A stretch of 48,996 bases of DNA. It comes from an uncultured archaeon (GTDB lineage: Archaea; Halobacteriota; Methanosarcinia; Methanosarcinales; Methanoperedenaceae). The position numbers were made by a program, and so were the translations under genes. Of this stretch, positions 20,971 to 46,699 are shown one piece after another (position 1 is the stretch's first letter; each line of letters begins with the position of its first letter). Where the stretch lies: assembly GCA_902384525.1 (NCBI GenBank), contig CABMCA010000100.1, positions 1-48,996 on the forward strand, given 5' to 3'. Below the pieces are notes generated by a model. It searched no databases. It was not told the origin of the DNA and saw only the letters and a list, made by a program, of their open reading frames with translations.

Positions 20971-21831
20971 ATGGACGAACTGACGAAAGTATCATTCACA
21001 AATCTGGACAAAGTCCTCTATCCAGGGCTGGGATTGAAAAAATCCCGGGTCATCAAATATTATATAGAGATTGCCCCCAGGATGCTTGGATTCCTGAAGA
21101 ACAGGGTAATAATCATGAACAGGTACCCTGATGGTATTGGCAAAGAAGGATTTTATGAAAAGGATGCACCGATGGGGATACCGGCATGGGTCGAAACTTT
21201 CAACCGGTATTCAAAGACAGCACAGCGGGACATCAACCATATTGTTTGTAATAACCTGGATACACTTATCTGGATGGCGAATCTTGCAGCTATTGAAATA
21301 AACACCACTCTTTCAACTATTGATAATTATGATACACCCGACCTTGTATTTTTTGATATAGATCCACAACCTCCCTATTCTTTTGATGATGTCATGGATA
21401 TAGCCTTTTCATTGAAAGAAAAGCTGGATGAACTCAACTTCAGGTCCTATGTAAAAACTTCAGGTAAAAAGGGACTGCATGTTGTCCTCCCGGTTATCAA
21501 TAAGTATAATTTCAGGCAGACAAGGGAATTTGTTCATCAATTCGGAAAGTTCATGGCAAGGGGATCTGATATTGTTGTATCTGAATTCAGGAACTCCAGG
21601 GATCCTGGAACTATCTTTATAGATTATCTGCAAAACATCAAAGGAAAGACCATGACAGCCCCATATAGCCTGAGAGCGAATCCCGAAGCAACAGTGTCTA
21701 CACCCCTTGAATGGAAGGAACTTAAGAAAGGATTAAGACCTGAGGAGTTCAATATATTTACTATATTAGAAAGAAAGAACGATCCCTGGGAGGGGTTACT
21801 GGAAAATAAACAGACATTGGAAGTGGAATAG
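20971..21831 (+). CDS. ligD-Pol: NHEJ polymerase/primase (LigD Pol domain, stand-alone)
   Basis: A 286-residue archaeo-eukaryotic primase-fold polymerase, equivalent to the Pol domain of bacterial LigD; it fills gaps during non-homologous end joining and prefers ribonucleotides in studied members. Features: LDKVLYPGLGLKKSRVIKYY, NRYPDGIGKEGFYEKDAP, the catalytic FFDIDPQPP with D129 and D131, the SGKKGLHVVLPV block and the closing TMTAPYSLRANPEATVSTPL. The length is that of an isolated Pol domain. Box A-like TATAAG lies about 30 bases before the ATG. First gene of a three-gene NHEJ operon; Ku begins one base after its stop. Confidence 0.94.
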   Translation: MDELTKVSFTNLDKVLYPGLGLKKSRVIKYYIEIAPRMLGFLKNRVIIMNRYPDGIGKEGFYEKDAPMGIPAWVETFNRYSKTAQRDINHIVCNNLDTLIWMANLAAIEINTTLSTIDNYDTPDLVFFDIDPQPPYSFDDVMDIAFSLKEKLDELNFRSYVKTSGKKGLHVVLPVINKYNFRQTREFVHQFGKFMARGSDIVVSEFRNSRDPGTIFIDYLQNIKGKTMTAPYSLRANPEATVSTPLEWKELKKGLRPEEFNIFTILERKNDPWEGLLENKQTLEVE

Positions 21832-21832
21832 A

Positions 21833-22642
21833 ATGGAAAATGATCAAGATCAGGACACAACTACAAGTAAACCCTCTGGCAGGCCCATCTGGAGCGGCAG
21901 TATCACAATAGGGCTTGTCAATGTGCCGATCAAGGTCTATACAATGATACGCGACAAGGCATTTTCATTCAGGCTTTTACACGATGAGGATGGACAGCCC
22001 TTGAAATATGAACGGGTCTGCACAAAGGATAATAAAGTGGTTGATTGGAAAAATACGGCAAAGGGATATGAAATACGAAAGAATGAGTTTATTGTTTTCA
22101 AAAAAGATGAATTGAATGCCATAAGACCTGAATCAGACCAGAGGATCAGGCTTGATAAATTTATCAGTTTACTCTCTATTGATCCAGTATATTTTGAAAA
22201 GTCGTACATCCTGGTCCCTGACAATAGCATAGACGCATACAGCCTGTTGATGACAGTGATCAGGCAAGAAGGTAAAGCAGGAATGGGAAAGATCACTATG
22301 AGAACAAAGGAATATCCGGTTGTCGTGTACGAATACAAGGGGGCTTTGATCCTGACAACCCTGCGTTATACTGATGAGGTGGTTAATCCGGGAGATTTAG
22401 AAGACCTTTCCAAACTCAAAAAACCTTCGCAAAAAGAGATGGAACTGGCCACGAGGATCATTCAGGGGCTATCCGGGGAATTTGATATAACCGAATACAG
22501 GGATAGTTACAGGGAAAAAATGGAACAGCTCATAGAAACGAAGATGAAGGGTGAAGTCATTGTTGCCCAGGTTCCAAAGAAAGAGGAAGTCAAGGAATTG
22601 ATGGTAGCACTTCAAGAGACGATCAAAAAACTGGGCAAATGA
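21833..22642 (+). CDS. ku: Ku protein (prokaryotic NHEJ)
   Basis: A 269-residue homodimeric Ku-core protein that binds DNA double-strand ends and recruits the ligase. After a short polar lead it has RPIWSGSITIGLVNVPIKVY, FRLLHDEDGQPLKYERVC, and FEKSYILVPD, all standard for bacterial Ku, then the long helical C-terminal region with EYRDSYREKMEQLIETKMKG. The lengths and domain order match bacterial Ku. The start is one base after the polymerase stop; the stop overlaps the ligase ATG (ATGA). Such Ku genes are rare in archaea, and horizontal transfer from bacteria at some point is likely. Confidence 0.95.
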   Translation: MENDQDQDTTTSKPSGRPIWSGSITIGLVNVPIKVYTMIRDKAFSFRLLHDEDGQPLKYERVCTKDNKVVDWKNTAKGYEIRKNEFIVFKKDELNAIRPESDQRIRLDKFISLLSIDPVYFEKSYILVPDNSIDAYSLLMTVIRQEGKAGMGKITMRTKEYPVVVYEYKGALILTTLRYTDEVVNPGDLEDLSKLKKPSQKEMELATRIIQGLSGEFDITEYRDSYREKMEQLIETKMKGEVIVAQVPKKEEVKELMVALQETIKKLGK

Positions 22643-24054
22643 AACAATATAAACCAATGTTTGCCAGACTGGCAGAAGCTCCATTTTCTTCTGATGACTG
22701 GATATTTGAAGTAAAATGGGATGGGATACGGGCTATCAGTTATATTACGGATGAATTAAGTCTCAAGAGCCGGAACCAGAAAGAACTGACAGATATTTTT
22801 CCGGAACTTTCTGAATTGAAGGCTCTGGCAGGCAATTCAGTGCTGGATGGGGAAATAATTATTATGAAGGATGGAAAATCTGACATCCAGACTCTCATCC
22901 AGAGAATGCAGGATACCAACCCGCGTGAAATAATGTTTATGGCTGGCAAATTTCCTGCGACCTATATAATATTTGATATCCTGGAAAAAGATGGAAAGGA
23001 GCTGTCAGATACCCCTCTTATGGAGAGAAAAAGGATATTGAAAAATTCAGTAAAAGAAGGGAATTTTATTGTCCTTTCCTTATTTGTTGAAGGGACCGGA
23101 GTTGCTTATTACAGGGCAGCCATGGAAAAAGGACTTGAAGGTATAATTGCCAAAAAGAAACAAAGCTCATATGAACCGGGAAAAAGGAGCAATAACTGGC
23201 TTAAAATAAAGCCGGAAAAGACATGTGATTGTGTAATTTTCGGTTATACGGAAGGTGAAGGGAACAGGGAGAAGATCTTCGGATCCCTGATCCTTGGATT
23301 GTATGATGCGAAAGGACCGGTCTTTATTGGTAAAGTCGGTACGGGTTTTTCCCGGGAATATATGGAAAATCTGAAGCTGACTCTGGATAAACATAAGGTT
23401 GAGGAGGAAACACTTCCCGGAGTGGATAAGGAAAGGGAAATTACCTGGTTAAGACCCGATATCGTGTGTGAAGTAGGTTATCAGTCCATAACAGATGATG
23501 GCAAGCTCCGTATTCCTGTGTTTAAAAGCTTAAGGGAAGATAAAGATCCCCTGGAATGCACTATTGATCAGATACGACCTGTTATTTCAGATTACGCGGA
23601 AAAAAGAGATTTTAGCATAACACCTGAGCCTCCAATGTTGCATGAAACGGAAAAGGATATGGGTACGGATATGGGTACGGGCATGAGTAAATTTGTGGTC
23701 CAGGAGCACCATGCGCGCAGGCTTCATTACGATCTGAGATTGGAAAAGGATGGAGTTCTCAAGAGCTGGGCGGTTCCTAAAGGTCCCCCGGAAATAAGCG
23801 GTGACAGAAGGCTTGCTGTCCAGGTGGAAGATCATCCGCTTGAATATGGTAAATTTGAAGGAACGATCCCGCAAGGGCAGTACGGGGCAGGAACTGTGAA
23901 GATATGGGATAAAGGATTTTATGAAACCATTTACTGGAAAGAGGACAAGATCGAGTTCATTGCAAAGGGAGAAAAGATGGAAGGAAGGTATGTACTTGTA
24001 AAATTCAAGAAAGCAGGGGAGAAGAACTGGCTGTTATTCAAAGGAAGTGAGTGA
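22639..24054 (+). CDS. ligD: ATP-dependent DNA ligase fused to a 3'-phosphoesterase domain
   Basis: A 471-residue NHEJ ligase. The ligase motif I is FEVKWDGIR with K26 as adenylation site; later motifs include LDGEIII, EGIIAKKK and WLKIKP. The oligonucleotide-binding domain follows (to about residue 320). After a short GTDMGTGM linker the C-terminal part is a LigD-type phosphoesterase: HHARRLHYDLRLE and VEDHPLEYGKFEG, with the His, His, Asp, Arg, His and Tyr set of the family. The order ligase-phosphoesterase differs from the PE-Lig-Pol order of Pseudomonas-type LigD. Its ATG overlaps the Ku stop. Confidence 0.93.
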   Translation: MKQYKPMFARLAEAPFSSDDWIFEVKWDGIRAISYITDELSLKSRNQKELTDIFPELSELKALAGNSVLDGEIIIMKDGKSDIQTLIQRMQDTNPREIMFMAGKFPATYIIFDILEKDGKELSDTPLMERKRILKNSVKEGNFIVLSLFVEGTGVAYYRAAMEKGLEGIIAKKKQSSYEPGKRSNNWLKIKPEKTCDCVIFGYTEGEGNREKIFGSLILGLYDAKGPVFIGKVGTGFSREYMENLKLTLDKHKVEEETLPGVDKEREITWLRPDIVCEVGYQSITDDGKLRIPVFKSLREDKDPLECTIDQIRPVISDYAEKRDFSITPEPPMLHETEKDMGTDMGTGMSKFVVQEHHARRLHYDLRLEKDGVLKSWAVPKGPPEISGDRRLAVQVEDHPLEYGKFEGTIPQGQYGAGTVKIWDKGFYETIYWKEDKIEFIAKGEKMEGRYVLVKFKKAGEKNWLLFKGSE

Positions 24055-24074: not shown

Positions 24075-24209
24075 TCAGCAGCATCCTTTGAAATCTTTGC
24101 ACATTTTAGCGCATTCTTCTGTACATTTTACGTTGAATCCGTCATCTGTACATTCAATGGTTGCAATCTCCTTTCCATCAGTTGTTATTTTGAATTCTCT
24201 GGTTTTCAT
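24075..24209 (-). CDS. Cys-rich 44-residue protein divergent from a PadR regulator
   Basis: A short gene on the minus strand. The perfect ribosome site GGAGGAGGTG lies eight bases before the ATG at 24209. The product starts MKTREFKITTDGKEIATIEC and ends with CAKMCKDFKGCC; its six cysteines lie in the second half (C20, C29, C33, C37, C43, C44). No family recognised. The cysteine-rich tail suggests metal(loid) or Fe-S binding. It is divergent from the PadR gene at 24328 with a 16-bp palindrome between promoter and ribosome site, so PadR control is likely. Confidence 0.8.
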   Translation of the reverse strand: MKTREFKITTDGKEIATIECTDDGFNVKCTEECAKMCKDFKGCC

Positions 24210-24230
24210 TCTATTTCACCTCCTCCGTAA

Positions 24231-24246
24231 TATCGTATATACGATA
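24231..24246. promoter_or_regulatory. 16-bp perfect palindrome, likely PadR operator
   Basis: TATCGTATATACGATA is identical to its reverse complement. It lies between the ribosome site and a box A-like AT-rich element of the leftward Cys-rich gene, at the expected transcription start. A related imperfect palindrome, GGTTATCCGATATAAACC (24275-24292), sits just before the box A-like TTTTTATACATA (about 24296-24307) of padR. Both promoters could therefore be repressed by the one regulator. Confidence 0.7.
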
Positions 24247-24327
24247 ATAAGATATTAAAGTATTTAATTGTGTCGGTTATCCGATATAAACCAACCTTTT
24301 TATACATAGTACCCAATATAATATTTC

Positions 24328-24627
24328 ATGAATTGCTGTGATATGAAAGGGTTTTTGTCCTACCTGATACTGTGGATATTAAGAAATAAGAAGATGAATG
24401 GGGCCGAGATATCAAGGGAACTGGAAATAAGGAGAGGCACAAAACCGAGCCCTGGGACACTATATCCTGCACTAAAAGAACTTAAGGATAAGGGCTTGAT
24501 AGAATCTGATGAGAATAAATACTATTCTTTAACTGATAAAGGAAAAATAGAATTGAGTTCTGCCTGCAATTTCTTCTGCAAGGCATTTTATGATATGAAA
24601 GAAATGTCTAACTGCTGCGAGCGATAG
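24328..24627 (+). CDS. PadR family transcriptional regulator, Cys-rich
   Basis: A 99-residue PadR-type winged-helix regulator: KGFLSYLILWILRNKKMNGAEI, SPGTLYPALKELKDKGLI (recognition helix) and KYYSLTDKGKIEL (wing) are the family core. The long C-terminal dimerisation helix is short here. Cysteines occur as pairs at the extreme ends (MNCCDM and SNCCER) and as CNFFC near residue 80, not usual for PadR; this suggests thiol or metal sensing. No clear ribosome site; the start lies about 25 bases after the box A, so the mRNA is probably leaderless. Confidence 0.85.
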   Translation: MNCCDMKGFLSYLILWILRNKKMNGAEISRELEIRRGTKPSPGTLYPALKELKDKGLIESDENKYYSLTDKGKIELSSACNFFCKAFYDMKEMSNCCER

Positions 24628-45580: not shown

Positions 45581-45853
45581 ATGACCCAAAAAGATAAAAA
45601 CGAATCTTGCTGCGGATCCGATGCCAGATCAAGCTGCTGTAAGGTAGAATCCATGATTAGCGTTGATGAACGCGGACAAATGGTGCTGCCAAAAGAGATC
45701 AGAGAAAGGGCAAATATCCATGCGGGTGATAAACTGGCGGTTGTGAGCTGGGAAAAGGACGGGAAGATAAGCTGTCTTACTCTGATCAAGGCCGAAGAAC
45801 TTGCGGGAATAGTAAAAGACATGCTTGGGCCATTGATAAAAGATGTGCTCTAA
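45581..45853 (+). CDS. AbrB/SpoVT-like domain protein with paired-Cys N-terminus
   Basis: A 90-residue protein. The C-terminal two thirds is a swapped-hairpin AbrB-like domain (MISVDERGQMVLPKEIRERA, GDKLAVVSWE), followed by a helix (EELAGIVKDMLGPLIKDVL). The first 24 residues carry two Cys pairs (C10-C11 and C19-C20) in ESCCGSDARSSCCK. Homologues of this kind lie beside arsenite methyltransferase or the mercury-methylation genes hgcAB. It precedes arsM by 21 bases, with a likely common transcript. A metal(loid)-responsive regulator is the simplest reading. Confidence 0.8.
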   Translation: MTQKDKNESCCGSDARSSCCKVESMISVDERGQMVLPKEIRERANIHAGDKLAVVSWEKDGKISCLTLIKAEELAGIVKDMLGPLIKDVL

Positions 45854-45874
45854 AATGAAACAGGAGAGATCAAA

Positions 45875-46699
45875 ATGAAAGAAGAAGATATAAGAAAGAA
45901 TGTTCGGGAAGGCTATGCGAAAATTGCGACAAAAGGGAAATCATGCTGTTCACCTGTAACTTCCTGCTGCGGGAGCGAAGGAAGGGCGGTAGAAATAAGC
46001 CAGAAAATAGGCTATGGAAAAGATGAAATTGAATCCGTTCCTGAAGGCGCAAATCTTGGGCTTGGATGCGGAAATCCGGTAGCTCTGGCAACACTTAAGC
46101 CTGGTGAAATTATTCTTGACCTGGGTTCAGGCGCCGGGTTTGATTGTTTCCTTGCAGCAAAAAAAGTAGGAGCCAGCGGGAAAGTCATAGGTGTTGATAT
46201 GACTCCTGAGATGTTAGAAAAAGCAAGGGAAAATGCCCGGAATGGGAAATACGCGAATGTGGAATTCAGGCTTGGTGAGATCGAAAACCTGCCTGCTGCG
46301 GATAATTCGATTGATGCTGTCATATCCAACTGCGTGATCAATCTGTCTCCTGATAAAAAGCAGGTTTTCAAAGAGGCTTTCAGAGTCCTAAAACCGGGGG
46401 GCAGGTTCATGGTTTCTGATATTGTATTGCTAAAAGAGCTTCCTGAGGTCATTAAGAATTCAGTTGAATCGTATATCGGATGTCTTTCGGGTGCGATTAA
46501 GAAGGAGGAATACATAAAATCAATCAAAGGTGCAGGATTCAAAGATGTCAGGATAATCGATGAGACAAAATATCCGATAGAGTTAATGGCAAATGACCCG
46601 ACAGCAAATGCAATTCTTGAGAATTTCAATATCCCGGAGGATGAGTTAAGAAGTATTGCTGATTCTATTGTTAGTATCAAGGTACAGGGACTGAAATAA
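45875..46699 (+). CDS. arsM: Arsenite methyltransferase (ArsM)
   Basis: A 274-residue SAM-dependent arsenite methyltransferase giving methylated, mostly volatile arsenicals. SAM motif [17 protein letters not shown] and [14 protein letters not shown]. The As(III)-binding cysteines of the family appear as C65 (LGLGCGNP), C153 ([10 protein letters not shown]) and C203 (IGCLSGAI), with the last two 50 residues apart as in characterised ArsM. The N-terminus adds two Cys pairs (C24-C25 and C31-C32) in [13 protein letters not shown], close to the motif in the AbrB-like neighbour. It starts 21 bases after that gene. Confidence 0.92.

Follow-up and report, generated by a model that had tools for sequence, protein, structure and literature searches.

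A putative thiol-responsive PadR divergon with a small cysteine-rich partner in a Methanoperedens-like archaeon and its relatives across the archaea

What do two short genes do that are transcribed away from each other and each encode a protein with adjacent cysteines? The pair lies in the window, by which we mean the whole 48,996-nt stretch of DNA analysed here, from a Methanoperedens-like archaeon that at this locus comes closest, among named organisms, to Candidatus Methanoperedens sp. BLZ2, METP1 and FeB_1. According to the window sequence and its list of open reading frames, the gene for a small protein and padR diverge from a 118-bp spacer, with a DNA-repair run (LigD polymerase, Ku, ligase) on one side of the pair and a glutamate-synthase-like gene on the other. 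The end-joining set adjoining the divergon, at 20971-24054, is split over three genes encoding a LigD polymerase domain, Ku, and a ligase with a phosphoesterase domain. An earlier note on this DNA had described both reading frames, cysteine pairs in their products, a perfect 16-bp palindrome in the spacer and a related site ahead of padR, and had read the whole as a metal(loid)- or redox-sensing unit. The frames are as it described, the 44-aa protein and the 99-aa PadR both carry cysteine pairs, and both DNA sites were located, as laid out below.

24075-24209, minus strand: 44-aa cysteine-rich protein, the class A small partner (open reading frame)
24216-24223, minus strand: ribosome-binding site of the small gene, GGAGGTGA, read from the sequence and conserved in all five orthologues
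24231-24246, no strand: putative operator site 1, a perfect 16-bp palindrome, TATCGTATATACGATA, kept in five orthologues
24252-24267, minus strand: AT-rich stretch with two candidate TATA-like boxes of the small gene, read by eye
24271-24286, no strand: putative operator site 2, TGTCGGTTATCCGATA, immediately 5' of the padR promoter box
24299-24306, plus strand: TATA-like box of padR, TTTATACA, read by eye from general archaeal promoter rules
24328-24627, plus strand: PadR regulator, 99 aa, with an N-terminal CCDMKG motif (open reading frame, Pfam PadR)

The 99-aa regulator belongs to the PadR family, scoring 55.3 bits against Pfam PF03551 (cut-off 27), and the top PDB fold matches of its model are PadR proteins, Rv3488 among them; the idea of a categorically new regulator was dismissed, since this is a clear PadR. 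The model (pLDDT 91.1) is that of a winged helix followed by a C-terminal helix: three helices cover residues 7-18, 25-36 and 42-54 and lead through a wing to the long last one at 70-97. Its six cysteines are at positions 3, 4, 80, 84, 96 and 97, of which C3 and C4 are modelled ahead of the first helix, C80 and C84 within the last helix and C96 and C97 at its end. Dimers of PadR proteins have the first and last helices of both subunits packed against one another, which makes a thiol site shared between subunits plausible. The fold also matches LmrR and other PadR structures, as would be expected if the cysteines were structural or incidental, the regulator sensed an organic molecule in the dimer pocket as LmrR does, and the small protein had an unrelated task. 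However, the conserved cysteine pair belongs to the N-terminal end, beyond the core of the fold (residues 1-10 have a mean pLDDT of 71), and the partner genes described below encode cysteine-rich proteins or the arsenite methyltransferase ArsM, and we regard such a pocket-based sensor as very improbable.

Both sequence and fold match the short PadR regulators Rv3488 (5zhc, 5zi8, 7wh4), CdPadR_0991 (5dym) and TA0346 (3elk), which share with the window PadR the winged helix, the single C-terminal helix and a length of about 100 residues; the hand-chosen structure alignment (A7) holds 68 PadR rows. By contrast with these regulators, the window PadR has a CCDM[KR]G motif, the common operator TATYGGNNNNCCRATA and a cysteine-rich or ArsM partner, and its 31.2 bits against the NCBIfam Rv3488 model NF053635 are far under the cut-off of 140.

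Sites 1 and 2 are separated by 40 bp within the spacer, and the start expected for the small gene's transcript, a position read by eye, falls within site 1. The padR translation start follows about 25 bases past its TATA-like box, leaving hardly any room for a leader, and, as read from these spacings, the padR transcript is probably leaderless. A sigma-70 promoter scan was set aside because it does not apply to an archaeon. Perfect 16-bp palindromes are not rare in such a window (two found, against a mean of 0.98 in 40 simulated windows), so the length of the palindrome was not counted as evidence; its place, sequence and conservation exceed what chance would give, and a chance palindrome was rejected on these grounds. 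The classical PadR operator is ATGT-N8-ACAT, from which both sites depart in following TATYGGNNNNCCRATA instead, and since many PadR proteins deviate from the classical operator, this does not lower the case for PadR membership.

The small protein occurs in 5 of the 31 genomes of the genus, and a close PadR orthologue is found in the same five, with 86-95% identity to the window PadR in the other four. A search for the gene pair and palindrome in other genomes, which the earlier note had proposed as a check, recovered the pair in four genomes besides the window's own, each with the palindrome site, and both operator sites are retained in all five. Site 1 is a perfect palindrome only in the window; in the other four it reads TATCGGATATACGATA, with one mismatched pair, and site 2 reads TATCGGTTATCCGATA. 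Spacing between padR and the small gene is about 118 bp in four of the five. The fifth, G020 (L068, G020:C55, about 118079-118958), carries an insertion of ~760 bp between padR and both sites that ends no more than 14 bp before the padR ATG and may have removed padR from its own control. Loss of the cysteines or of the palindrome in orthologues would have spoken against the earlier reading, and most cysteines are kept: C3, C4, C80 and C84 of PadR in all five, with the C-terminal pair broken in G003 and G020, and C20, C29, C43 and C44 of the small protein in all five, with C33 and C37 each in four. Pairwise dN/dS among the orthologues is 0.08-0.24 for padR and 0.03-0.39 for the small gene, indicating purifying selection on both, and the existence of orthologues, these ratios and the conserved ribosome-binding site exclude a spurious small reading frame.

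Metallothioneins, which bind metal clusters, contain many C-x-C and C-C motifs; the small protein has six cysteines in 44 residues (positions 20, 29, 33, 37, 43 and 44) with one CC pair and no CxC. It matched no Pfam family above the cut-off. Sub-threshold Pfam matches, including a weak one to DUF2969 (12.5 bits against 25), were discarded. The small protein is modelled with one helix, three strands and a CC tail that hangs loose (pLDDT 81.5, pTM 0.52), and a PDB fold search with this model gave no match at E 0.001. Relatives divergent from a PadR gene were found in DPANN archaea and Methanobacteriaceae. The profile of the small protein matched only two of a sample of 392 phylum genomes, namely the window's own and one with a weak match inside a long frame.

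When species genomes were searched with 11 aligned PadR sequences, 214 relatives were confirmed, the best 80 of which were analysed and are archaeal, coming from DPANN groups, Bathyarchaeota, Thor- and Hermodarchaeota, Methanobacteriaceae, Thermoplasmatota and others. Judged by its sequence, the window PadR falls in an archaea-wide subfamily marked by C-C-D-M-[KR]-G at the N terminus. We define the subfamily by this motif, an upstream operator and a divergent gene for a cysteine-rich protein or ArsM, and the window has all three, the divergent gene being of the cysteine-rich kind. The second cysteine of the CCDM motif is present in 74 of these best 80 relatives; because one of the two search patterns itself contained cysteine, it was also counted among the loci matching the cysteine-free pattern, where 62 of 68 have it. 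In L072, the motif reads RYYDM and the N-terminal cysteine pair is absent, with the operators and a class A partner still present.

The 16-mer TATYGGNNNNCCRATA was derived from the window, its orthologues and L008, a locus of another family, and related sites in the relatives had already been noticed before the count was made, in which TATYGGNNNNCCRATA with at most one mismatch lay in the 250 bp ahead of the PadR match at 75 of the best 80 of 214 loci (exact at 57). The palindrome named in the earlier note therefore recurs well beyond the five orthologues. Without the three Methanoperedens loci, the site remains at 73 of 77 (exact at 55), and 63 of these 77 have at least two sites; elsewhere in the same loci, there were 3 sites in 398,494 bp, and 200 shuffles gave a mean of 0.16 loci. 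Among the best 80 of 214, the upstream site is missing in L071, which is the insertion case, and in L098, L099, L101 and L113. Start-to-start distances between operators in the upstream regions of L072-L148 cluster at 14 bp (20 pairs), 30 bp (14 pairs) and 40-44 bp (38 pairs), and such fixed distances suggest that PadR may bind cooperatively in set arrangements.

Among the best 80 of 214, the genes facing padR were sorted into classes with regular expressions and by visual inspection: 28 divergent partners are ArsM, 18 are class A proteins, which are relatives of the window's small protein, 25 are class B proteins and 9 are something else or nothing clear. These counts place L071 in class A despite a small gene 880 bp off behind the insertion, and L098 and L099 in class B though their small frames lie 638 and 346 bp off without an operator; the small protein of L077 is truncated, and L117 and L141 count as ArsM yet fall outside the 26 ArsM proteins that were aligned. 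All 26 aligned proteins match the NCBIfam arsenite methyltransferase model NF008823 at E 0.001 or better (345 bits against a cut-off of 263 for the first member, 106 for the partly masked L110), and they share conserved cysteine columns, which we take to be the arsenic-binding cysteines. Mapping the ArsM partner onto the tree of PadR sequences requires 4 changes, against 23.6 with shuffled labels. The ArsM partners are not restricted to a single PadR clade, as L086, whose PadR groups with that of the window, faces ArsM; the fork uniting this group has support 86/89, computed from few columns. At L076, a close relative, a class A small protein lies beside acr3, which is above its cut-off, and a thioredoxin-type arsC, which at 128.9 bits is below its cut-off of 174.3.

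Class B (within L088-L148; alignment of 21 of the 25 loci) is an unnamed family of ~50 residues with N-terminal cysteines and the core F[FL]TKEEKxxxLxEYKxxLExExKGVxE, for which no Pfam model above the cut-off was shown. Several unrelated small cysteine-rich families thus occupy the divergent position beside PadR. That such families or ArsM recur in one and the same place suggests that they handle the ligand of the regulator, and because this PadR so often stands beside an arsenic-detoxifying enzyme in archaea, the probable signal is arsenite or another poison that binds thiols in a similar way. Arsenite is the simplest ligand to assume, with general thiol stress as the main rival.

A soft metal ion such as copper, mercury, cadmium or zinc might be sensed instead, with the small protein as its chaperone or buffer. 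The class A locus L078 adjoins a heavy-metal P-type ATPase, and ATPase-like matches lie near L125 and L137 too. Rv3488, the PadR with matching structures, reportedly binds cadmium and zinc, which would also suit a metal sensor. However, such an ATPase is found at only 3 of the 80 loci (best 80 of 214), and L125 and L137 also face ArsM, and we therefore consider a soft metal ion improbable as the ligand.

The second genes of the divergent operons bear on the redox half of the earlier reading, since 10 of 31 encode flavin enzymes (four nitroreductases, four flavin reductases and two FMN reductases). Oxygen, quinone or disulfide stress could oxidise or alkylate the cysteine pair, and repair of the damaged thiols would then fall to the cysteine-rich protein, flavin reductases, nitroreductases and flavoprotein; ArsM would figure among the outputs of such a sensor because arsenite is a thiol poison. 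A paralogue in the window genome fits this picture. At L063 (3424-4553, G000:C103), the gene of a PadR with the motif SCDMRG and that of a flavoprotein with a cysteine-rich loop point away from each other, and the only exact TATYGGNNNNCCRATA match of the window genome lies between the two; one locus with the SCDMRG paralogue also has an MTH895/ArsE-type thioredoxin-like gene. YodB/HypR-type thiol regulators of Bacillus use a cysteine switch beside nitroreductase or azoreductase genes, and in this they resemble the switch proposed here, but they belong to the MarR/DUF24 family. RosR of Halobacterium, a haloarchaeal oxidative-stress regulator and in this respect different, is not known to carry such a cysteine pair. 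Its archaeal PadR-like fold (6qfd, 6ez1) is matched by the window PadR. A thiol-based archaeal winged-helix regulator is on record in the TrmB-type OxsR of Haloferax, which acts in hypochlorite stress (PMC9426492). OxsR likewise has one winged helix, a conserved cysteine at the N-terminal end and a motif beside the BRE/TATA element, but differs in its TrmB family, single cysteine and CG-rich motif. The window PadR reaches 21.7 bits against the TrmB model, below the cut-off of 25.6.

By contrast, ArsM is the commonest single partner enzyme (28 of the best 80 of 214) and is hard to connect with redox stress in general, and adjacent CC pairs equally suit the binding of a soft metal(loid). Of the two ligands offered by the earlier note, the metal(loid) gains support from ArsM in 28 of these 80 loci and from acr3-arsC at L076, and redox or electrophile sensing keeps its place because flavin reductases and nitroreductases recur as partners; we judge a general thiol, electrophile or redox sensor to be the strongest of the alternatives and still unlikely.

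Taking these observations together, we favour, with moderate confidence, the view that the two genes form a compact stress switch operated through thiols, in which a PadR repressor freed by an arsenite-like thiophile controls a cysteine-rich ligand binder. A PadR dimer would bind both TATYGGNNNNCCRATA-type sites in the spacer; binding at site 1, over the expected start, would shut off the divergent cysteine-rich gene, and binding at site 2, which adjoins the promoter box, would tune padR itself. A thiophilic compound, most likely arsenite, would then bind or modify the N-terminal cysteine pair, perhaps together with the cysteines of the last helix, whereupon PadR would release the DNA and the 44-aa protein would be made and might bind the same kind of ligand through its own cysteines. 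The ArsR/SmtB arsenic repressors would work alike, as winged-helix proteins near arsenic genes that arsenite releases through cysteines, yet the window PadR is not one of them (12.5 bits against a cut-off of 55 for NCBIfam NF033788, and 14.4 against 22 for Pfam HTH_5).

Several observations count against an arsenic switch: besides the flavin second genes, the flavoprotein of the paralogue and L072, these are the arsM genes of the genus, G003 and G020, and eight loci elsewhere in the phylum that lack a cysteine-rich or ArsM partner. Within the genus, arsM is above its cut-off in 26 of 31 genomes, at 45875-46699 in the window, and in all 26 loci (one per genome) it adjoins a cysteine-rich AbrB-type, HgcC-like gene. 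The PadR operator was not found in these 26 arsM stretches. With a different candidate regulator at every locus and the operator absent, ArsM was rejected as a target of the window PadR in the genus, and this PadR does not look like the arsM regulator there. G003 and G020 have the divergon pair and no arsM above the cut-off. At 45581-46699 of the window, the AbrB-type gene, with a cysteine-rich N terminus and 126.6 bits against a cut-off of 70 for NCBIfam HgcC, is followed by arsM, and it is possibly a second, different cysteine-based arsenic regulator.

Across the phylum sample of 392 genomes, 12 have strong members of the subfamily, at 13 places with E 3e-31 or better (the next at 4e-21). 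Eight of these loci lie beyond those already described, with the motif cysteine in seven and the operator in four, and no cysteine-rich small or ArsM partner was seen by eye in any of the eight. In other lineages of the phylum (L213, L215-L220), a PadR with a CDM motif lies upstream of a gene like that of the archaeal release factor aRF1 (by eye, five loci), close to it in some, and a cysteine-rich partner is absent. In the window genome, TATYGGNNNNCCRATA with at most one mismatch occurs 46 times and the reversed control 23 times; a wider regulon was considered by reading 14 further places, several of them inside reading frames, and by eye no target was convincing.

Beyond this locus, we propose tentatively, with rather more doubt than belief, that archaea have arsenite sensors of their own on the PadR fold and not on that of ArsR/SmtB, with a CCDM cysteine pair and one operator across Asgard, TACK, euryarchaeal and DPANN lineages, which would drive either methylation or exchangeable tiny arsenic-binding proteins, the 44-aa protein included. 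Such an arsenite-responsive functional class of PadR is predicted from gene context. Titles and the opening parts of abstracts in the open literature, a body that leaves out most subscription papers, described neither such a PadR nor a link from PadR to arsM, and the main text of PMC6205960 does not mention PadR. If the proposal is true, uncultured archaea, methane oxidisers and Asgard among them, would sense arsenic or other thiol poisons with a family missed by ArsR-based surveys, and the operator and motif would make the regulon predictable from sequence. Methane-oxidising archaea have been linked to arsenate reduction. The tiny partner proteins would then form a new group of metal(loid) binders open to experiment, with a bearing on methylated arsenic from sediments.
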